Under the pieces are notes generated by a model. It was not told the origin of the DNA and did not search any database. It saw only the letters and a program-made list of their open reading frames with translations. From Candidatus Aquicultor sp. (GTDB lineage Bacteria; Actinomycetota; Aquicultoria; Aquicultorales; Aquicultoraceae), in assembly GCA_036504445.1 (NCBI GenBank), contig DASXVE010000023.1, positions 1-64,000 of the forward strand: 64,000 nt of DNA, given 5' to 3'. How positions within the stretch are numbered: position 1 is the stretch's first letter; each line of letters starts with the position of its first letter. The position numbers were made by a program, and so were the translations under genes. This document shows, piece after piece, positions 2,046 through 45,523 of the stretch.

Positions 2046-3690
2046 TAATCTGCGGGTCTGGTCCCGGCCCAGGACGAACGCTGGCGGCATGCACTTGCCC
2101 CGACAAGTCGAGCGGACTGTTCCTACAATTTCTGTAACCGTAGCACGTTTGCTATGGATTAGGAAAAGGACGGTTACGCGGCGAACGGCGGAGTAACACG
2201 TAGGTGACCTGCCTCAAAGACCGGAATAACCTCACCCCGGGAGGCCCTAAAAAGGTCACTTGGGATGAGCTAATGCCGTATAAGCTCACACTGCTCATGC
2301 GGCGTGAGAAAAGGTAGCCCTTAATCAAGGCTTCCGCTTTGAGATGAGCCTGCGCCCCATCAGGCAGTTGGTGGTGTAAAAGACTACCAAGCCGATGACG
2401 GGTAGCTGGCCCGAGAGGGTGGTCAGCCCGACCGGAACTGAGACAAGGCCCGGGCCCGAAAGGGCTAGCGGGGTGGAATCTATCGCAATGCGCGAAAGCG
2501 TGACGATGCAATGCCGCGTGAAGGAAGAAAGCAGGTGAAAACACCTGTCGTAAACTCCAGTCGGTGGGGAGTAAGCGTGGCCGGTTAAGAGCCGGACCAC
2601 GTGAAAGTACCTGCCGGTAAGAGCGCCGACAAACTGCGTGCCAGCAGTCGCGGTCAAACGTAGGGCGCAAGCGTTGTCCGGAATTACTGGGCGTAAAGGG
2701 TACGTAGGCGGCTTGGGCGTATCGGCTGTGAAAGCCCTCCGCAAAACGGAGGAAGGGCAGCCGAGATTACTCGGCTAGAGCCCGGCGGAAGGAAGTGGAA
2801 CTTCCGATGTAGCAGTAAAATGCGTTGATATCGGAAAGAACCCCAAACGGCGAAGGCAGCTTCCTATACCGTGGCTGACGCTAAAGTACGAAAGCCAGGG
2901 GAGCGATGCGGTTTGGTACCCGCGTAGTCCTGGCTGTAAAAGATGGGCACTAGCTCCCGACCCTCAGGAAGGCCGGAGGCGAAGCTAACGCATTAAGTGC
3001 CCCGCCTGGGGAGTACGGCCGCAAGGCTGAAAACCAAGGGACTTGTGGAAACCTGCACAATCGGCGGCGAGTGTGGTTTAATGCGATTTCGAGCGCAGAA
3101 TCTTACCAAGGTCGCCCGTGCGTGAAAGCCGGTGGAAACACTGGCATGCCGTTCAAACTGTGGGCAACCCACGGTGACGCGGAAACTCGCACAGGCAGGC
3201 ATGAATGGTCACCGTCAGCCCGTGCCGTGAGGCGTGAGGTCAAATCCTCGTAACGGGCGCAACCCCTTACCCCATGTTGCCATCGGACACACGCCGGGCA
3301 CTCATAGGGGACTGCCCGCGTTCGAAGTGGGAGGAAGGCGGGGACGACGGCAGATCCGTATGTGCTGAGTACCTTGGGCTACACACACGCGACAGTGATC
3401 GGGACAAAGAGGGCCGATCCCGCGAGGGGGAGGAAATCTCAAAAAACCGACCGAGGTACGGATTGCAGTCTGGAACCCGACTGCATGAAGATGAAGCCGA
3501 TAGTAATCGCAGATCATCAAGCTGCGGTGAATACGTTCTCAGGTTTTCTTCATATTGCCGGCCGCATCCGCCATAGAAGAAGCAGCTGAAGCTACGCGGC
3601 CCAACCGGACCCCAGCGGGCCTCATTTTTGAGGTTTACTGGGACCCGGAGGACGGTAGCGAGGCTGCTCCGACGAGGCGGTCGTAGGATG
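2046..3690 (+). rRNA. 16S-like rRNA with altered functional centres
   Basis: Homology to 16S rRNA is unmistakable along its length (AGGACGAACGCTGGCGGCAT near 2071, GGAATTACTGGGCGTAAAGG near 2680, GAAGCTAACGCATTAAGTG near 2982), at about 1645 nt. It departs from consensus at sites that are nearly invariant in life. The 27F, 515F, 806R and 926R priming sites all carry changes. The 790 loop is UUUGGUAC (2912-2919). The C1400/A1408 strand and the A1492/A1493 strand (3647-3655) are rewritten, the h45 tetraloop is CGAC (3670-3673), and CCUCC is absent at the 3' end. Helices are kept by paired changes: h1 2054-2058/2066-2070, pseudoknot 2062-2064/3038-3040, h18 2629/2648, h24 2908-2911/2920-2923, h28 3049-3055/3540-3546, h31 3082-3085/3094-3097. 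Numbering follows E. coli, aligned by eye from memory. I infer a paralogous, structure-conserved RNA rather than the cell's working 16S. Confidence 0.9.
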
Positions 3691-4021
3691 GGCATACTGC
3701 CCGTACCGAGAGGTGTGGGCGTAAACTTGGAGCTCAGGCTCTTCTTTTAAGATGCCAAAAGCTCGATGTCCGGCCAGGAGTTCCGGCTCCGGGTTCCCCC
3801 GGGGGCAACCCCCAGGCAACACCCGTCCGGACGATCTCCAAGGTTTGCACATAAACCTTGGGGCTGAAGGTTCAAGGCTAAAAGTCCAATGGTGAAGATG
3901 CCGATTTTCATTGTTGGGTGGGGCCGAGCAGCCCAACCAGCCTTGAGCCTTGAGCCCGCACGGCGCGTAAACCGTGCGTCTCACCTTGTTCATTGAAAAC
4001 AATATAGCGTGCATTAGAAAG
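3691..4021 (+). other. 16S-23S spacer without tRNA; second boxA-like site and processing stems
   Basis: No tRNA can be folded here. The spacer carries GTCCGGCCA (3768-3776), pairing with the leader. It has a stem of GGTTCAAGGCT with AGCCTTGAGCC (about 3869-3955), a GCACGG/CCGTGC hairpin (about 3959-3979), and a boxA-like CTTGTTCATTGAAAAC (3985-4000). ATAGCGTGCA (4004-4013) is perfectly complementary to TGCACGCTAT at 7271-7280 beyond the 23S-like RNA, the expected 23S processing stem. Keeping these parts argues that the locus is still transcribed and processed as one precursor. Confidence 0.7.
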
Positions 4022-7261
<3,240 letters not shown>

Positions 7262-21877: not shown

Positions 21878-22130
21878 TCTTACGAAGTAAGCGTGCGAGC
21901 GTTTGCAGCATAGTCTAGCATACCCGGTAGCAGCGGTTTTGCGCTTCGGGAATTGATGTTGGCTGCACCATATTATGGAAATCGCCAGCTATGGCGCCAA
22001 TAATTCTTGCCTTAACCACCATTTTTCCTCTAAAATAGGAGTCTACAGCGAAGTTTAACTTATCCGGATAGATCGATAGATCGCTTGGATTGATCATCCT
22101 TGATTTCAGATACGGCATGGAGGTAGTAAG

Positions 22131-23339
22131 TTGACCGAATATAAACTAGATAGTTTTGACCTAAAACATTCATATGTGGATGTTGACCTTACTAAGGTAA
22201 AGATCGATGATACAACGCTGCGTGATGGCGAGCAGACCGCCGGTGTCGTATTTTCGAACCATGAGAAAGTGAGGATCGCCCAGCTTCTCGATCAAATCGG
22301 CGTTCAACAGATCGAGGCCGGTGTTCCCGCAATGGGCGGCGACGAGAAGGCCGTTATCAAAGAGATCGCGAGTATTGGCCTGCGCGCCAGCGTACTCGGT
22401 TGGAACAGGGCCGTTATTGAAGATATCCAGCATTCAATTGATTGCGGTGTTGATGCGGTCGCGGTATCAATCGCAACATCTGATATCCATATACAGCATA
22501 AGCTGAAAAAAGACCGTCAGTGGGTTATCGACAGTGCTGTTGAATGCGTAAAATTTGCAAAATCACATGGCGTATATGTTTCCGTTAACGGTGAAGATGC
22601 GTCACGCGCAGATATCGGTTACATGATCGAATTCGGCCAGGCTGTTAAAGAAGCCGGTGCCGACCGTTTGCGCTTCTGCGATACCATCGGCGTTCTCGAC
22701 CCATTCCAGACCTTCACGGTAATCAAAGAGCTTCGCGAGGGAACCGGTCTTGAGATTGAAATGCATACGCACAACGATTTCGGAATGGCCACGGCAAACG
22801 CGCTTGCCGGTATAAAAGCAGGTGCAATGTGGGTTAACACAACGGTTAACGGGCTTGGCGAGCGTGCGGGCAATGCCGCTCTCGAAGAAGTTGTTATGGC
22901 GCTCAAGTTTCTTGGCCATGTCGACCTCGGCTTTAAGACAGTAATGTTCCGCGACCTTTCCGAGTACGTGGCGATGGCGTCCGCACGGACTATCCCGATT
23001 TGGAAAGCAATTGTCGGCACCAACTGCTTTGCGCATGAGAGCGGTATCCATGCCGACGGTATGTTGAAGAACCCGACAACCTACGAGGTATTTGCACCGG
23101 AAGAGGTCGGCCTGCAGCGCCAGATCGTTATCGGAAAGCACTCGGGCTCGGCATCGATCGTTGCGAAGTTTAGGGAATTCGGCATAGAGCTCGATCCGGA
23201 ATCGGCCAAGGAGATCCTGGCAGAAGTACGCAAAGCAGCAATAGAACTCAAGCGTCAGTTGTTCTCGAAAGAGCTCGTATACATCTATCAGGACTACATG
23301 CGCAGGAAAGGAAAGGAGCTTGAGCCTGAACGTGGGTAA
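22131..23339 (+). CDS. NifV-type homocitrate/Re-citrate synthase
   Basis: A 402-residue DRE-TIM metallolyase: DDTTLRDGEQTAGVVF, QIEAGVPAMGG, HTHNDFGMATANA and CFAHESGIHADG. These are NifV/homocitrate-synthase signatures. It lacks the C-terminal LeuA regulatory domain present in the leuA at 40878. Re-citrate synthases of anaerobes fall in this same subfamily and cannot be separated from homocitrate synthase by motif. The following LeuCD-like subunits and an isocitrate-type dehydrogenase, with no nif genes nearby, favour citrate as product (acetyl-CoA + oxaloacetate), feeding 2-oxoglutarate and glutamate. TTG 22131 follows GGAGGT. No other gene is supportable in the 253 bases before it. Confidence 0.85.
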   Translation: MTEYKLDSFDLKHSYVDVDLTKVKIDDTTLRDGEQTAGVVFSNHEKVRIAQLLDQIGVQQIEAGVPAMGGDEKAVIKEIASIGLRASVLGWNRAVIEDIQHSIDCGVDAVAVSIATSDIHIQHKLKKDRQWVIDSAVECVKFAKSHGVYVSVNGEDASRADIGYMIEFGQAVKEAGADRLRFCDTIGVLDPFQTFTVIKELREGTGLEIEMHTHNDFGMATANALAGIKAGAMWVNTTVNGLGERAGNAALEEVVMALKFLGHVDLGFKTVMFRDLSEYVAMASARTIPIWKAIVGTNCFAHESGIHADGMLKNPTTYEVFAPEEVGLQRQIVIGKHSGSASIVAKFREFGIELDPESAKEILAEVRKAAIELKRQLFSKELVYIYQDYMRRKGKELEPERG

Positions 23340-24585
23340 AACGATTGTTGAAAAGATATTAAGCGAGCATTGCACGACCGATGCTTATGCGGGAGATATA
23401 GTTGTAGCCGAAATCGACGCGGCGTTAGTACAGGATGGAACCGGACCACTGGCGGTTCAGCAGCTTCAAAAACTTGGGATGGAAAAGGCGGCAAAGCCGG
23501 AGCGTACGGTTCTCTTTATCGACCATGCGGCCCCAAGCCCACGAAAAGAGCTTTCAAACGCTCATAAGATATTAAGGGATTTTGCGGCAAAAACGGGAGC
23601 AATCCTCTCGGATGTTAACGAGGGCGTGTGCCACCAGCGGATGGTCGAGCGCTACATGAACCCCGGTGAAGTCTTAATCGGTGCGGATTCGCACACCTGT
23701 ACGGCGGGTGCGCTCGGTGCATTTGCGACAGGCATGGGCTCGACCGATGTTGCGATAGGTATTGCATCGGGGCAGACCTGGCTTCGGGTGCCGGAGACGT
23801 TTAAGGTGTATGTTACCGGAGAATTTCAGCACGGTGTGTACCCGAAAGACTTTATGCTGCATTTTATAGGTATGATCGGCGCCGATGGCGCTACATATAA
23901 AGCCCTCGAGTTTTGCGGGCCGACCATTGATGCTATGGATATGTCGGGTAGGTTTACCCTGGCAAACATGGCGGTCGAAGCCGGAGCAAAAGCGGGGCTC
24001 TTCCAATCCGATGAAACCACGAAGAAGTACCTTGAAGAGTGCGGTCGCGGCGATAAGTGGAGCGAAGTAAAAGCGGATGAGGACGCCGTATACGAAGCGG
24101 TTTATGAGATCGACATATCGACGTTGGAGCCGACGATTTCGTGCCCCCACACAGTCGATAATACAAAGACGATACAAGAAGTTGCAGGCACCACAGTCGA
24201 CCAGGTATTTATCGGCACGTGTACGAACGGCCGCATTGAGGACCTGCGGATTGCAGCGCAAATTCTGGCAGGCAAAAAACGTAACCCGAACACCAGGCTT
24301 CTGGTATGTCCGGCATCAAATGACGTGTACTTAAAGGCGATTGAAGAGGGCATCATCGCGAAGTTGGTTGCCGCAGGTGCAGCAATCGTTAACCCCGGCT
24401 GCGGTGCGTGTGTCGGCGTTCATGGCGGTATTTTAGGTGACGGCGAGGTGTGCCTCGCAACGCAGAACCGCAACTTCCAGGGCCGCATGGGTAACCCGGA
24501 AGGGTTTATCTATTTGAGCTCACCGGCGGTTGCAGCGGCGACGGCAATCGAGGGCGTCATTGCCGACCCGCGAAAGTATCTATAA
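23320..24585 (+). CDS. aconitase/homoaconitase large subunit (LeuC-like)
   Basis: About 421 residues of the LeuC/HacA type. Iron-sulfur ligands are in GTCTNGRIEDLR and NPGCGACVG, with [20 protein letters not shown] in the active site. It should dehydrate and rehydrate citrate/isocitrate or the homo-series analogue with the next gene's product. It overlaps the synthase gene by 20 bases if TTG 23320 is used, or 8 bases from GTG 23332. The purine-rich AGGAAAGGAAAGGAG before it fits either poorly, suggesting translational coupling. It is a clear paralogue of leuC at 42574. Confidence 0.92.
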   Translation: MSLNVGKTIVEKILSEHCTTDAYAGDIVVAEIDAALVQDGTGPLAVQQLQKLGMEKAAKPERTVLFIDHAAPSPRKELSNAHKILRDFAAKTGAILSDVNEGVCHQRMVERYMNPGEVLIGADSHTCTAGALGAFATGMGSTDVAIGIASGQTWLRVPETFKVYVTGEFQHGVYPKDFMLHFIGMIGADGATYKALEFCGPTIDAMDMSGRFTLANMAVEAGAKAGLFQSDETTKKYLEECGRGDKWSEVKADEDAVYEAVYEIDISTLEPTISCPHTVDNTKTIQEVAGTTVDQVFIGTCTNGRIEDLRIAAQILAGKKRNPNTRLLVCPASNDVYLKAIEEGIIAKLVAAGAAIVNPGCGACVGVHGGILGDGEVCLATQNRNFQGRMGNPEGFIYLSSPAVAAATAIEGVIADPRKYL

Positions 24586-24600
24586 ATTCGAGGAGTAACG

Positions 24601-25104
24601 ATGCAAATACAAGGAAACGCATGGAAATTTGGAGATAGTATCAGCACCGACCACATAGCCCCGGGAAGGTTGTTTCATTTGAGAACCAATCTGCCGGAGC
24701 TTGCAAAGCATGTTCTCGAGGATGCCGACCCCGAGTTTGCGGGCAAGGTGCAACCGGGCGACTTTGTCGTAGGCGGCAAAAACTTTGGCCTTGGCTCAAG
24801 CCGCGAGCATGCGCCGACTATCATTAAACTGGCCGGCGTAGGTGCCGTACTTGCCGAATCGTATGCCAGAATCTTCTATCGCAATGCGATCAATGTAGGG
24901 CTTCCGGTTCTTATCTGCGACACCACGCAGATCGACCAGGGCGATGAGCTCGAAGTTGATGTCAGTAAAGGTGAGGTAAGAGATATCACGAAGGGCATTA
25001 CCATTAAGGCTAAACCGCTGCCGGATGTCATGATTAAAATCCTCAATGACGGCGGTTTGCTCGAGCACTTCCGCAAGAACGGCGGGTTTGCACTCGAGGC
25101 ATAA
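24601..25104 (+). CDS. aconitase/homoaconitase small subunit (LeuD-like)
   Basis: 167 residues: ISTDHIAPGRLFHLRTNLPE start, GGKNFGLGSSREHAPTIIK core and FYRNAINVGLPVLIC. The substrate-recognition loop reads HLRT, with an Arg as described for archaeal homoaconitases that grip a distal carboxylate; the second LeuD in this window has YLKT. That difference supports a tricarboxylate substrate here, as inference. GGAG precedes ATG 24601, 15 bases after the large subunit. Confidence 0.9.
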   Translation: MQIQGNAWKFGDSISTDHIAPGRLFHLRTNLPELAKHVLEDADPEFAGKVQPGDFVVGGKNFGLGSSREHAPTIIKLAGVGAVLAESYARIFYRNAINVGLPVLICDTTQIDQGDELEVDVSKGEVRDITKGITIKAKPLPDVMIKILNDGGLLEHFRKNGGFALEA

Positions 25105-25178
25105 GCTCATCTAAAACGCCAGGTGATTTACTAAACACCAGCTACGTGATATAAATAATACTTTAGGGAGTTCATTCA

Positions 25179-25206
25179 GCGGAGCGCGATGCTCCGCTTC
25201 TTTTTA
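25179..25206 (+). terminator. intrinsic terminator/attenuator before the dehydrogenase gene
   Basis: GCGGAGC (25179-25185) and GCTCCGC (25191-25197) pair around GCGAT, then TTCTTTTT. It lies between the small aconitase subunit and the dehydrogenase, so only part of the transcripts should continue unless a separate promoter serves the latter. Confidence 0.82.
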
Positions 25207-25239
25207 GATGCACATCGTTTTAAGGAAAGGTGGCAAAAC

Positions 25240-26310
25240 GTGTATACGATTACGATGATTCCCGGTGACGGTATCGGGCCGGAGATTTCTGAAGCAATGC
25301 GCCGCGTTGTCGAGTCGACCGGTGTAAAAATTGATTGGGACGTGCAGGAAGCCGGAGCGGATGTTATGGATAAATACGGGACACCGCTTCCCGACCACGT
25401 GCTTGATTCAATCAAGAAGAATAAAGTCGCTATAAAGGGGCCGATTACCACACCGGTTGGTACGGGATTTCGAAGTGTAAATGTAACCCTGCGGAAAGCG
25501 CTCGATCTCTATGTAAATCTTCGCCCCGTATATAGCTTAAAAGGCGTAAGGAGCCGATTCGAAGACATCGACCTTATAATCGTTCGCGAGAACACTGAGG
25601 ACCTCTATGCCGGTATCGAATTCGAAGAGGGCAGCAAGGACGCGAAAGAGCTTATCGATTTCTTGAAAGCACGCGGCGCTAAGATTCGCTTTGAGGATGC
25701 GGGGATTAGCATCAAGCCGATCTCGATTTCGGGCAGCGAGCGCATTGTGCGTTTTGCCTACGATTACGCTCAGCGCGAAGGCCGCAAGAAAGTAACCGCT
25801 ATTCACAAGGCGAACATCATGAAGTATTCGGACGGATTGTTCCTGCGCGTAGCAAACCAAGTCGGCGAGCAGTATCCGGATATCGAGACCGAAGATAGAA
25901 TCGTCGACAACATGTGCATGCAGCTTGTCCAGAAACCTGAACTCTACGACGTGCTGGTATGCCCTAACCTCTACGGGGATATCTTGAGCGATCTTTGCTC
26001 GGGCTTGATCGGCGGTTTAGGCATGGCCCCCGGCGCAAATATCGGCACCGAGCATGCGGTGTTCGAGCCGGTTCACGGCAGCGCGCCGAAATATGCCGGG
26101 CAGAACAAGGTAAACCCGGCCGCTCTAATATTATCGAGCGTTTTAATGCTCAAGCATATCGGCGAGCGCGAGGCGGCTGACAAAGTATTTAACGCCACCG
26201 CCGATGTTATTGCAGAAGGCAAACGCGTGACCTATGATCTTGGCGGTACTGCCGGTACATCGCAAATGGCCGATGCCATTATCGATAAGATATTGCCTAC
26301 GAACCCTTAG
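25240..26310 (+). CDS. isocitrate (or homoisocitrate) dehydrogenase
   Basis: A 356-residue beta-decarboxylating dehydrogenase. The substrate motif [12 protein letters not shown] with LDLYVNLRP has the Ser/Asn arrangement of isocitrate dehydrogenases and differs from the leuB at 44462. [16 protein letters not shown] and [15 protein letters not shown] follow. Lys-Tyr in the last block matches NADP-specificity residues of E. coli Icd, but the later Arg position reads Gly ([10 protein letters not shown]), so the coenzyme is unclear. GTG 25240 has AAAGGTGG at 25225-25232; an earlier in-frame ATG lies inside the terminator stem and is rejected. It completes the acetyl-CoA to 2-oxoglutarate route. 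Its last 14 bases overlap the convergent sortase gene. Confidence 0.88.
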
Positions 26311-27373: not shown

Positions 27374-27751
27374 TAATATTCTCCAAATAGGGAGAACATA
27401 GCTGTAATGCTAAAGGCTATGAAGGGGAGTAGTAAGCTTTCTTACTGTAGGAGCGAGCCGGGGATGGTGCGAAGCCGGTACAAGACGAAAGCCGAATGTC
27501 GCCCCGGAGCCGGCCACCTGAACAGCAATAGGGTTGATAATGATAAGGTTTATAACCATAGCGCTTAGTAGTTTGGCCCGTGATATCCGCGTTACGGATA
27601 CAAGTGCAGCACGCCCGTAAACCAAGAGATAATGAAATAGCTTGGCGAAGAAACGCCCGGTTACGTAAGAGTCGGTTTGGCGCGCTGAAGTTGGGTGGTA
27701 CCGCGTGAGAATCCTCTCGTCCCATATGGGGCTGAGAGGTTTTTATTTTTT
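27374..27751 (+). promoter_or_regulatory. T-box riboswitch leader of ilvD operon, probable valine specifier
   Basis: The T-box sequence AAGTTGGGTGGTACCGCG (27688-27705) is present in full. Downstream, CCTCTC/GAGAGG with an inner CCC/GGG stem and T-run (27713-27750) forms the terminator that competes with the antiterminator. Stem I upstream has the usual AGCGAGCCGGGGATGGTGCG distal part (near 27452-27471). In the specifier loop GAATGTCGCCCCGGAG, the likely codon is GTC 27498-27500 (Val); reading one base off is possible. Uncharged tRNA would switch on ilvD and the genes behind it. Confidence 0.92.
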
Positions 27752-40818: not shown

Positions 40819-40877
40819 CATAATTTAATACTGTTGACTTACGTACTTTTAATTTAAGAACAAGGTGGTTGTAACAA

Positions 40878-42392
40878 GTGACAGCAGACGCTAATCGTAT
40901 TTATCTGTTTGACACAACATTACGAGACGGGGAACAGTCGCCCGGTATTTCTCTTAGCACCAGGGAAAAGCTGGAGATTGCCGAGCAACTGGCGCGCCTT
41001 GGCATCGATGTTATCGAGGCCGGGTTTCCAATTACGTCACCCGGTGATTTCGAGGCGGTCAGCAAAATAGCGGCGAAGGTAAAAGAACCGGTCATCACTG
41101 CTCTGGCCAGGGTAGTTGAAGCCGATATCGATAGAGCTGCCGAAGCGATAAAACATGCGGAGAGGCCTCGCATCCACACGTTTGTCATGTCTTCGGATAC
41201 GCAGATCGAACGTCAGCTTAGGAAGACCAAAGATGAGGTTTTGATGATGGCGGTTAACGCGGTTAAGCACGCCAAGTCGTATGTTGACGATGTCGAGTTT
41301 TCACCGATGGATGCAACGCGCGCAGACTTCGATTTTTTATGCAAGCTTATCGAAGCGACAATCGAGAGCGGTGCGACCGTCGTTAATATCCCGGATACCG
41401 TCGGCTATGCGACGCCGGATGAGTTCGGCAAGCTTATCGCCGACCTTATTGCGGCCGTGCCTTCGATGAATGATGTTATTATAAGCGTACATTGCCACAA
41501 CGATCTGGGTATGGCTACCGCAAATTCACTGGCCGGTGTTGTAAACGGCGCCACTCAGGTAGAGGGTGCGATTAACGGTCTCGGCGAGCGCGCCGGCAAT
41601 ACGTCCATCGAAGAAATTGCGATGATTCTCGATACCAGGCGCAACATGCTTGGCAAACATACGAATATTAAAACCGAAGAAATCAGCAAGACGAGCCGTC
41701 TTGTAAGCAGCTTGACCGGCTACCAGGTACAATACAATAAAGCCATAGTCGGGCGCAACGCGTTTGCCCACTCTTCCGGCATTCACCAGGACGGTGTCTT
41801 AAAAGAGCGCTCCACATTTGAGATTATCGACCCCAAAAGGGTCGGTGTGACCGAAAGCGCGCTCGTGCTCGGCAAGACATCGGGCCGCCACGCCTTTAGA
41901 ACGCACTTGGAATCGCTTGGCTACCGCCTGTCGGATGATGAGCTTGAGAATGCGTTCGAGCGCTTTAAAGCTTTGGCTGACAAAAAAGCGGAAATCACGG
42001 ATATCGATGTCGAAGCGTTGGTCGCCGACGAGGTTCGAACCGCGTCCGATATCTATACGCTTGAGTATCTCTATGTGTGCAGCGGCACCGATTCAACTCC
42101 TACTGCGACAGTTCGCCTCAAGAAAAACGGCGATGTAATTGAGGGTGCAAGCGCCGGCGACGGGCAGGTTGACGCTGCCTGTAAAGCCATTAAGATGGCG
42201 ACTGGGGTGAAAGGGCGACTTATTAGCCTTAACATTAACTCGATTACGGAAGGCCTCGATGCGCAGGGCGATGTTACAATCCAGCTCGAGATAGACGGTA
42301 AGTCCGTTCTCGGCAGGGGCGTAAGCACCGACATTATTGAGGCCAGCGCCAAAGCCTATCTAAATGCAATCAACAAGGCTATGAGTAGCTAA
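40878..42392 (+). CDS. leuA: 2-isopropylmalate synthase
   Basis: 504 residues: DTTLRDGEQSPGISLS, IDVIEAGFPITSPGD, VHCHNDLGMATANS and NAFAHSSGIHQDG in the TIM barrel, then a C-terminal leucine-binding regulatory domain (about 385-504). First committed step of leucine synthesis. GTG 40878 has AAGGTGG 8 bases upstream. It heads the leuA-leuC-leuD-leuB-ilvE-cimA series. Confidence 0.95.
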   Translation: MTADANRIYLFDTTLRDGEQSPGISLSTREKLEIAEQLARLGIDVIEAGFPITSPGDFEAVSKIAAKVKEPVITALARVVEADIDRAAEAIKHAERPRIHTFVMSSDTQIERQLRKTKDEVLMMAVNAVKHAKSYVDDVEFSPMDATRADFDFLCKLIEATIESGATVVNIPDTVGYATPDEFGKLIADLIAAVPSMNDVIISVHCHNDLGMATANSLAGVVNGATQVEGAINGLGERAGNTSIEEIAMILDTRRNMLGKHTNIKTEEISKTSRLVSSLTGYQVQYNKAIVGRNAFAHSSGIHQDGVLKERSTFEIIDPKRVGVTESALVLGKTSGRHAFRTHLESLGYRLSDDELENAFERFKALADKKAEITDIDVEALVADEVRTASDIYTLEYLYVCSGTDSTPTATVRLKKNGDVIEGASAGDGQVDAACKAIKMATGVKGRLISLNINSITEGLDAQGDVTIQLEIDGKSVLGRGVSTDIIEASAKAYLNAINKAMSS

Positions 42393-42573
42393 GTAGACGT
42401 TTGCTGATCGTAGCACAGATTAAAACCAATGTAGGCTTTATGAGCAGGGGGCGTACCGGCTATTAATTCAGGACTAAATTAGTCCTGAATAGGGAAGCGA
42501 CATAGTAACAAGTCGAATGCGTCGCACTAAATTGATGGCTCGATGACAACCGCAAAAGGAATGGAGTATAGAT

Positions 42574-43860
42574 ATGGGAATGACGATAACCGAGAAAATC
42601 TTAGCGGCGCATGCCGGAAAAGATAAGCTCACACCGGGAGACCTGGTAAATGTTAAGGTTGACCTGGTGCTGAGTAACGATATAACTGCGCCGATCGCGA
42701 TTAAAGAGTTCAAAAAGATCGGCGTCGATAAGGTATTCGATAAAGACAAAGTAGTCATGGTTCCCGACCACTTTGCTCCCAATAAAGACATCGATTCCGC
42801 GGAGCAGTGCAAGATGGTGCGCGGTTTTGCCCACGAGCAAGAGCTCTCCAACTATTTTGAGGTTGGTCGCATGGGCATCGAGCACGCGCTGCTGCCCGAG
42901 CAGGGTTTGGTTTTACCGGGCGACGTGATAATCGGGGCCGATTCCCATACCTGTACGTACGGCGCGCTCGGCGCGTTTTCGACCGGAATGGGCTCAACCG
43001 ATATCGCCTCAGCTATGGCGATCGGCGAGACATGGCTGAAAGTTCCACAGACCATAAAGTTCGTATTTCGAGGTACCGCTTTTAACCCGTGGGTGTCGGG
43101 CAAGGATTTGATCCTCTACACCATCGGTAAAATCGGCGTCGACGGTGCGCTCTACCAGGCTATGGAGTTTACCGGTGAAGCGATCTCCAAGCTGTCGATG
43201 GACAGCCGTTTTTCGATGTGCAATATGGCGATTGAAGCGGGCGGCAAATCGGGCATCATAGAGCCCGATGAAAAGACGCTAGATTATGTTGAAGGGCGTG
43301 CAGCCCGCGAGTTCACAGTATATAAGAGCGATGCTGACGCTGAGTATGCGCAGGTTTTTGAGTGGGATGTGGCGGACATCGAGCCGCAAGTCGCATTTCC
43401 GCACCTGCCGTCGAACACCCGCGGTATAAGCGACGTCGGCGAGGTTGCTATCGATCAGGTCGTTATCGGATCTTGTACAAACGGCCGTTTGGAAGACCTG
43501 CGCATTGCGGCGCAGATCCTGAAAGGCCACGAGGTCGACAAGCGAATCCGCTGTATTGTTATCCCGGGTACGCAAGCGATTTACAAACAGGCAATGAAGG
43601 AAGGCCTGATTGATATATTTATTGACGCAAAAGCTGCGGTAAGTACACCAACATGCGGCCCATGCCTCGGCGGGCATATGGGTATTCTGGCGAAGGGTGA
43701 GCGTGCTCTGGCTACAACCAACCGTAACTTTGTCGGCCGGATGGGGCATCCGGAGAGTGAAGTATACCTGTGCGGTCCGGCTGTTGCTGCGGCTTCGGCT
43801 ATCGCCGGTAAGATCGTCAGCCCTGATTATGTAATGCATAAAGAGCCGAGTATCGGATAA
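42574..43860 (+). CDS. leuC: 3-isopropylmalate dehydratase large subunit
   Basis: 428 residues with iron-sulfur Cys in [12 protein letters not shown] and [11 protein letters not shown], and [20 protein letters not shown]. Within the leu cluster it is the isopropylmalate isomerase; its paralogue at 23320 probably serves citrate. GGAATGGAG precedes ATG 42574. The 181-base gap after leuA holds a small TTCAGGACT/AGTCCTGAA hairpin near 42466-42489. Confidence 0.94.
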
Positions 43861-43876
43861 TTGGGAGGTTAAACTC

Positions 43877-44374
43877 ATGATATATAAAGGACGCTCGTGG
43901 AAATTCGGCCGGGATATCGACACCGACGCAATCATACCGGCCAGGTACTTGAAAACAAGCGACCCGGACGAGCTGGGCAAGCACTGTATGGAAGATGCCG
44001 ACCCGGAGTTCGTCAACAAGATGAGCAGGGGCGATATTATTGTTGCCGATGAAAACTTCGGTTGCGGCTCGTCGAGGGAGCACGCACCGATTTCGATTAA
44101 AGCAGCCGGTGTCTCCGTCATAATCGCCAAGTCGTTCGCCCGCATTTTCTATCGGAATGCAATCAATATGGGATTGCCGATTATGGAGAGCGCTGAAGCG
44201 GTAGACGGCATTAGTAACGGCGATGAAGTTCAGGTTGATACCGATAAAGGTGAGATCATCAACATCACGACCGGTAAAACATATAAGGCTAAGCCGTTCC
44301 CTGAGTTTGTCAATAATATTATGCAGCAAGGCGGCTTAATCGAGTACGCGAAAGCGAAAGTAAAGAACGCTTAA
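43877..44374 (+). CDS. leuD: 3-isopropylmalate dehydratase small subunit
   Basis: 165 residues: DIDTDAIIPARYLKTSDPDE, DENFGCGSSREHAPISIKA and FYRNAINMGLPIME. The recognition loop YLKT differs from the HLRT of the paralogue at 24601. GGGAGG precedes ATG 43877, 16 bases after leuC. Confidence 0.94.
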   Translation: MIYKGRSWKFGRDIDTDAIIPARYLKTSDPDELGKHCMEDADPEFVNKMSRGDIIVADENFGCGSSREHAPISIKAAGVSVIIAKSFARIFYRNAINMGLPIMESAEAVDGISNGDEVQVDTDKGEIINITTGKTYKAKPFPEFVNNIMQQGGLIEYAKAKVKNA

Positions 44375-44461
44375 GCTAATCTTGAGAGGGAGACTACCCA
44401 CGCCGGTGTGCGACGAATGCATACGAAGAAGGCTAGAAGACTAAGAGGTGGAGGAGAGAAC

Positions 44462-45523
44462 TTGTATAAGATAGGAGTTATCCCCGGGGACGGAACCGGG
44501 CCAGAGGTTGTAAGAGAAGCGCTGAAAGTGCTGGAAGCCGTAAGTGAGGTCGAAGGCTTTAAATACGAGCTTACGCACTATGATTTTGGCGGTGACAGGT
44601 ATCTGCGCACAGGCGACATATTGCCCGACTCGGCGATCAATGAGTTTCGCCAGCAGGATGCGCTGCTGCTTGGCGCTATCGGCCACCCTGACGTGAAGCC
44701 CGGTATTTTGGAGAAAGGTATCCTTTTAAAGGCCCGTTTTGCGCTCGACCAATACATCAACTTGCGGCCGGTTAAGCTGTTTCCCGGCGTTTACACTCCT
44801 ATCAAGGATAAAGGCCCGGAGGATATCGACTTTGTGGTTGTCCGTGAGAACACCGAAGGCTTATATGCAGGAGCAGGCGGTTTCCTGAAGAAAGGGACGG
44901 CCGATGAGGTCGCGACACAGGAAAGCATCAACACCAGGAAAGGTGTCGAGCGCTGCATCCGCTATGCGTTTGAGTATACGCGCAAGCGCAATAAGGAAAA
45001 CAAGTTGACGCTGTGCGGTAAAACCAACGTGTTGACTTACGCGTTTGATCTGTGGGAGCGTGCCTTTAACGAGGTAGGGCAGGAATATAAGGATATTAAA
45101 ACCGATTACGCGCACGTTGATGCGATCTGCATGTGGTTCGTGAAAAACCCGGAGTGGTTCGATGTCATCGTAACGGATAACATCTTCGGCGATATCATCA
45201 CCGATCTTGGCGCTATGATTCAAGGCGGCATGGGTATTGCGGCCGGCGGAAACATCAACCCGGAAGGCGTTTCTATGTTCGAGCCGATCGGCGGCTCTGC
45301 GCCAAAATATACCGGTATGAATATCATCAACCCGCTTGCCGCTATCGGGGCGGTCCAGCTGTTGCTTGAGACGCTTGGCGAGAAGGAAGCAGGCCGGAAG
45401 ATAGAGAACGCTATCGTGACGGTTACATCGTCAAAGATACAAAGCCTGGCGGCCGGCAAGATGGGCTATGGTACATCCGAAGTCGGCGATATGGTTGCCG
45501 AGCTCGTAAAAGAAGCTATATAA
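44462..45523 (+). CDS. leuB: 3-isopropylmalate dehydrogenase
   Basis: 353 residues from TTG 44462, which follows GGAGGAG (44450-44456); an earlier in-frame ATG at 44408 gives unconserved residues. Motifs: [46 protein letters not shown] and [11 protein letters not shown]. This is the LeuB subgroup with a long [15 protein letters not shown] region found in Actinobacteria and relatives. Confidence 0.93.

Follow-up and report, generated by a model that had tools for sequence, protein, structure and literature searches.

What kind of molecule is encoded by a gene that is recognisable as a bacterial 16S rRNA and differs from ordinary 16S genes at conserved positions of its 530 loop? The question arises from a locus in the window, by which we mean the whole stretch of 64,000 nucleotides from Candidatus Aquicultor sp. 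that was analysed. A sequence-only reading had reported a compensatory pseudoknot change and altered conserved bases in this loop, and had taken them to imply a retained fold with different chemistry.

A second rRNA operon and its chromosomal place

The gene is part of a complete second rRNA operon, 16S-23S, in the window. Its features are given below, with E. coli numbering placed on the window through a MAFFT alignment.

1950-1970, + strand: boxA-like leader element ATCGTTCTTTGAAAAATGAAC, like the canonical leaders of relatives
2046-3729, + strand: divergent 16S-like rRNA gene (Rfam RF00177, 1012 bits, model 1-1533; alignments)
2623-2668, + strand: helix 18 with the 530 loop, E. coli 500-545; A506-U525 (2629/2648), C532 (2655), A534 (2657), G530 kept (2653)
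3551-3705, + strand: rewritten h44 and decoding region, ending where the h45 stem begins; G at 1408 (3564), U at 1492 (3684), A at 1493 (3685), G at 1495 (3687)
3698-3729, + strand: h45 region; stem kept, loop altered, no CCUCC anti-Shine-Dalgarno following
3983-4004, + strand: boxA-like spacer element ACCTTGTTCATTGAAAACAATA before the 23S, alike in four genomes
4026-7258, + strand: divergent 23S-like rRNA gene (Rfam RF02541, 2109.5 bits, model 1-2925; alignment)
6625-6627, + strand: P-loop, G2251, G2252 and G2253 all changed to U (alignment and model alignment)
6827-6828, + strand: peptidyl transferase centre (PTC), A2451 changed to U and C2452 to G (alignment and model alignment)
7034-7037, + strand: sarcin-ricin loop, with GCAA in place of the GAGA tetraloop and the GNRA type retained (alignment and model alignment)

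The 16S-like gene matched RF00177 over its full length with 1012.2 bits (Rfam cut-off 50), compared with 1546-1590 bits for 8 complete canonical 16S genes of relatives, a range that leaves aside a G011 copy of 1208 bits that looks imperfect at its 3' end. With both a full-length score and the canonical secondary structure, the gene is a bacterial SSU rRNA by descent, about 66% identical to the ordinary 16S of the group. Its 515F primer region reads GTGCCAGCAGTCGCGGTCA, unlike the standard primer site, so amplicon surveys could miss the operon. An Rfam scan detected no 5S beside the divergent 23S in the window; a 5S follows the divergent 23S in G001 only.

We searched 396 genomes of the phylum with the window 16S. 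Among the matches listed, identity above 75% over long stretches was seen in the window's own genome and in G001, G005 and G009, which belong to the same family and matched at 79-86%. G011, from a second family of the same order, gave matching pieces at 75% among the matches listed, and the other long matches listed were 66-72% identical, as expected of canonical 16S. Where a genome lacks rRNA contigs, failure to find the divergent operon counts for little. Scanning named genomes with a pattern yielded 5 records, 4 of them real, including Candidatus Aquicultor secundus (class Ca. Aquicultoria, Actinomycetota); the record JAJEJB010000006, without a blastn match to the rRNA operons, was taken to be a chance match.

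Four genera of Ca. Aquicultoraceae (Actinomycetota) carry the divergent operon at one and the same position in the chromosome. In the window the order is MscS, operon, ARC6-like, MbdU/DUF5714, DUF5658, CoA-binding protein, LigA and GatA/GatB, and the part from MscS to DUF5658 is found in G000, G005 and G009 as far as the contigs reach. The operon of G001 is followed by the same genes and shares an upstream ORF, again as far as the contig reaches; MscS was not found in G001. A mobile element was considered and rejected, as the place is constant and the divergent 16S pattern had 0 matches in viral contigs. No divergent 16S was matched in seven of the 12 near genomes, namely G002, G003, G004, G006, G007, G008 and G010. 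In genus g4 the site is uninterrupted and empty in three of four genomes (G003, G006 and G010), where about 200-340 bases separate the ARC6-like gene from a conserved element upstream, and the operon is therefore dispensable in that genus. The G002, G004 and G007 contigs break off at the operon place. On one G011 contig, the 16S-like gene and a piece of 23S point towards each other, possibly because of a misassembly.

The leader boxA-like element TCTTTGAAAA is present in the window, G001 and G005, three of the four family copies, and was not found in the divergent operon of G009; it also occurs in the canonical leaders of G001, G003, G006, G007 and G011. The spacer boxA-like site was located in all four family copies, three of them recognised by eye. 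A promoter-like pair, which came from a simple pattern scan only, was given no weight. The 16S-23S spacer (window 3730-4025) also contains a hairpin-like motif, TTCCGGCTCCGGGTTCCCC followed by GGGCAACCC, in all four copies.

Pieces of the canonical operon were found in four of the five carrier genomes: the 3' part of the 23S in the window's own genome, the 5' part of the 16S in G001, the whole 23S in G005 and the 16S in G011. None were found in G009. The own genome's canonical operon is readable in part: a 23S fragment on contig C10 is 94-95% identical to the canonical 23S of G005. Another, on contig C21 (3 kb), has only 78% identity to canonical 23S of the family and may be misbinned, so we relied on the C10 fragment. 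A single copy of the gene for ribosomal protein uS12 was found in 11 of 12 genomes and none in the twelfth, which gives no sign of a second set for this protein. The canonical 23S genes themselves carry intron-sized inserts, of 986 bases after 2262 in G005 and of 778 bases after 1931, together with smaller ones, in G007.

Some other features of the window deserve mention. Just upstream of the operon lies a structured element of about 200 bases (1630-1835, +) that ends in a U-run and is conserved both with and without the operon. An alignment of 6 sequences has 64 consensus pairs, 11 of them with two-sided changes. Clear matches were found in 7 of 296 phylum genomes, all of this family, plus 3 short weak ones; Rfam gave no match. 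On this evidence the element is possibly a new small RNA. Farther downstream are two related leucine-type gene sets (22104-26307 and 40875-45520; HMGL-like, aconitase-like, Iso_dh), both matched by the proteins of one leucine-type set of G001, and a T-box leader (27410-27727, +) upstream of an ilvD-like gene.

Helix 18, the decoding region and the 23S centres

All four letters assigned to the 530 loop by the sequence-only reading (A506, T525, C532 and A534 in the DNA) were borne out. In a canonical reference set of five 16S genes (E. coli and Actinomycetota G007, G024, G036 and G037; the canonical G011 16S, with its odd 3' end, was kept out), G506, C525 and A532 occur in all five and U534 in four, G037 having A534. 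Ordinary 16S genes of the lineage therefore do not share the divergent bases, except for this one A534. The pseudoknot pair is also kept, as had been proposed: 506 and 525 truly covary, being A-U in three of the five divergent copies and G-C in two.

Across the same five copies, position 532 reads C, T, G, T, T and position 534 A, T, T, A, A, so neither has a fixed new state. The core of the loop (516-531) is unaltered in all five, save 525, which changes with 506. Over h18 as a whole (500-545), 36 of 40 canonical-invariant positions are intact in all four family copies, and in the same comparison 35 of 84 compared positions of the 3' minor domain. Because h18 is among the best-preserved regions and 532 and 534 are variable, the 530 loop was the wrong place to put the emphasis. 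What survives of the earlier claim is more general: a retained fold with altered conserved bases describes the whole 16S and 23S, and a changed decoding chemistry is far better supported elsewhere, at A1492U, 1408, 1404-1406, 1495-1500, 966/967, the lost anti-Shine-Dalgarno and, in the 23S, A2451U and G2251U.

In the 16S decoding region, A1492 is replaced by U in all four family copies, and at 1493 the window has A where the three remaining copies have U (the 3' end of the divergent G011 copy aligned poorly, and its letters at 1492 and 1493 were not used). Position 1408 is G in three family copies, 966/967 are UU in four, the U1406.U1495 pair is replaced by C and G, and 1404 is G. The h45 stem keeps 38 of 39 pairs and its loop differs; CCUCC after h45 is absent from all four family copies. 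G926 and 898-901 are kept. Of A1492, A1493 and G530, which together were taken to mark a functional 16S, G530 is kept and 1492 is lost.

The changes in the 23S are as extensive. A2451U, U2449A, A2453G, G2251U, G2253U, U2504A, G2583A, U2584A and G2661A are found in all four family copies, and G2252U in three; G2553 of the A-loop is changed in three, and the H69 loop is rewritten. The sarcin-ricin tetraloop is GCAA in three copies and GAAA in one. Thus neither mark of a functional 23S, A2451 with P-loop G2251/G2252 or a sarcin-ricin GAGA, is present in the family. U2506, G2505 and A2450 are kept, as is G2447 in three of four copies. In G009 and G005, two of the four, the L1 stalk (E. coli 2099-2194) is deleted; in G001 a long perfect palindrome stands in its place. 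Near 16S position 1031, G001 and G005 have a similar palindrome, of GGGGACGTTCC type. Covariance-model alignments, made for the window only, agree on the letters of the decoding site, P-loop, PTC and sarcin-ricin loop, which speaks against alignment error at these functional sites for the window.

Fold retention and age

We followed 455 E. coli 16S pairs, taken from Rfam alignments, through an alignment built from primary sequence. The window copy keeps 363 of 444 (82%), G009 367/435, G001 373/446, G005 356/416 and G011 363/431, compared with 409/453 in the canonical 16S of G007; that is, divergent copies keep 82-86% of canonical pairs, and canonical Actinomycetota relatives about 90%. Between the window and G007 there are 96 two-sided changes, 75 of them still paired (41.9 two-sided changes are expected under independence), and 67 one-sided changes, 32 still paired. 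The resulting 107 changed pairs that are kept compare with 66.6 (maximum 83) when the derived bases are randomised.

Compensatory change continues within the clade, where each comparison has 23-40 two-sided changes against 5.4-12.3 expected, with 10-25 paired in both copies. Altogether 105 two-sided paired changes fall at 42 pairs; sliding the 3' partners by 1-3 positions reduces them to 11-40, and the share of paired cells then falls from 84% to 37-43%. Many one-sided changes in the clade, however, disrupt a pair (between the window and G009, only 22 of 66 are paired in both). In 23S domain V, the window keeps 138 of 160 pairs and the other copies 131/140, 137/151 and 133/144, with 5-16 two-sided changes within the clade against 0.6-3.8 expected. 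A pseudogene would be expected to have no excess of compensatory change; an excess was found in both the 16S and 23S domain V.

In a tree of 40 rows, the five divergent 16S rows group as a single clade (support 100/100) on a long stem, outside all canonical rows including E. coli, where long branches (G011x was flagged as one) make the exact root unsure. Within the family, divergent copies are 78-87% identical in the 16S and 79-85% in the 23S, and fourfold sites of neighbouring genes are only 23-42% identical in 7 comparisons and hence saturated. Identity of 78-87% at such saturation, together with the compensatory changes, indicates that the fold is selected. In the 23S core, the divergent copies of G005 and G009 are 87% identical and the canonical genes of G005 and G007 93% (G007 and G009 are of the same genus), which puts the rate of change in the divergent clade at about double that of canonical rRNA.

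Explanations and known systems

Judged by their sequences, the divergent operons share a common origin followed by long divergence, retain a fold with compensatory changes and boxA-like elements, and carry altered nucleotides at tRNA, mRNA and GTPase contacts. To our minds there is about an even chance that the second operon is an ancient, vertically inherited paralogue beside the canonical operon that specifies a non-translating ribosome-like particle or scaffold. The operon would be transcribed as one long RNA, and the divergent RNAs would fold with the usual ribosomal proteins of the cell into bodies resembling subunits. G2251 and G2252 pair with the CCA end of tRNA; A2451, G2251/G2252 and A1492/A1493 are near-universal, and many mutants at these positions are lethal or dominant-lethal in E. 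coli. For this reason we infer that the particle would not carry out canonical translation. As a guess, it might hold ribosomal proteins or ribosome-binding factors in reserve, or act as a sink for them. The evidence may be read more broadly, with a probability we would again put near one half, as a second rRNA pair selected for the ribosomal fold and freed from canonical decoding and peptidyl transfer, having either a non-translational job or a catalytic centre of other specificity. Against a selected, non-translating particle we counted its pairing, poorer than canonical, the one-sided breaks, the roughly twofold rate and the empty site in genus g4.

The same observations favour slow decay of a relic: the operon would have arisen by duplication, lost translation and begun to erode, with its fold conserved only through selection against toxic misassembly or because decay is slow. 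Evolution faster than that of canonical rRNA, imperfect pairing with many broken one-sided pairs, palindromic inserts, loss of the L1 stalk, the lack of an adjoining 5S in the window and a genus without the operon all speak for it. Compensatory changes nevertheless continue within the clade, and a neutral relic so old should hardly align, rather than keep 78-87% identity beside saturated fourfold sites; we consider slow decay rather unlikely, and a recent pseudogene is disfavoured by the compensatory changes and the conservation. It is more doubtful still that the operon encodes a second ribosome with rebuilt decoding and peptidyl transferase centres for special messages, perhaps leaderless ones because the anti-Shine-Dalgarno is missing. 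The whole operon is kept with its boxA-like elements, as are the 530 loop core, G926, 898-901, U2506, G2505, G2447 (three of four copies) and a GNRA-type sarcin-ricin loop, and the PTC ring is 82% uniform within the divergent clade against 76% for the whole 23S. Set against these are the changes at G2251, G2252 (three of four copies), A2451, A1492 and A-loop G2553 (three of four), an L1 stalk gone or replaced in three of four copies, and the fact that no second uS12 was found in 12 genomes. Finally, the genomes are drafts, mostly named as metagenome bins, with broken rRNA contigs, which would fit an artefact through contamination, organelle DNA or misassembly. The same gene neighbourhood in four assemblies, four named public records and a single clade make an artefact of this kind extremely improbable, and the shared neighbourhood itself rules out contamination and organelle DNA.

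The functional centres of rRNA are generally taken as universal and indispensable. A fold kept over an order while A2451, G2251, A1492 and the anti-Shine-Dalgarno are changed draws a line between 'ribosome-shaped' and 'translating', opens rRNA neofunctionalisation to testing, and offers natural variants at positions whose mutants are usually lethal. If the operon is instead a decaying relic, it is a very old form of a known kind and not categorically new.

Fast-evolving organellar rRNAs are, like the divergent operon, highly diverged with an overall rRNA fold, but they generally keep A2451, P-loop G2251/G2252 and A1492/A1493, which are changed here. Engineered orthogonal or heterologous ribosomes have an altered anti-Shine-Dalgarno; the divergent operon is natural, its anti-Shine-Dalgarno is missing and its catalytic core is altered too. 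It resembles rRNA pseudogenes in having lost functional positions, and differs from them in a fold kept by compensatory change across genera. In a literature search with most subscription papers and all preprints outside its scope, we found no rRNA operon that is about 34% divergent, catalytically altered and conserved in fold. According to PMC5658200, the second operons of Scytonema hyalinum diverge by 7.3-9.0% in the 16S without insertions, stated as the highest seen, and Thermoanaerobacter, as cited there, reaches 11.6% with insertions. Like the divergent operons of Scytonema hyalinum, and also of Haloarcula and Thermobispora, for which promoters are plausible, the 16S-23S operon in the window is structurally intact and the second of its cell (PMC5658200). 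Unlike that of Scytonema hyalinum as reported there, its divergence is about 34% and extends to catalytic and decoding positions (PMC5658200).
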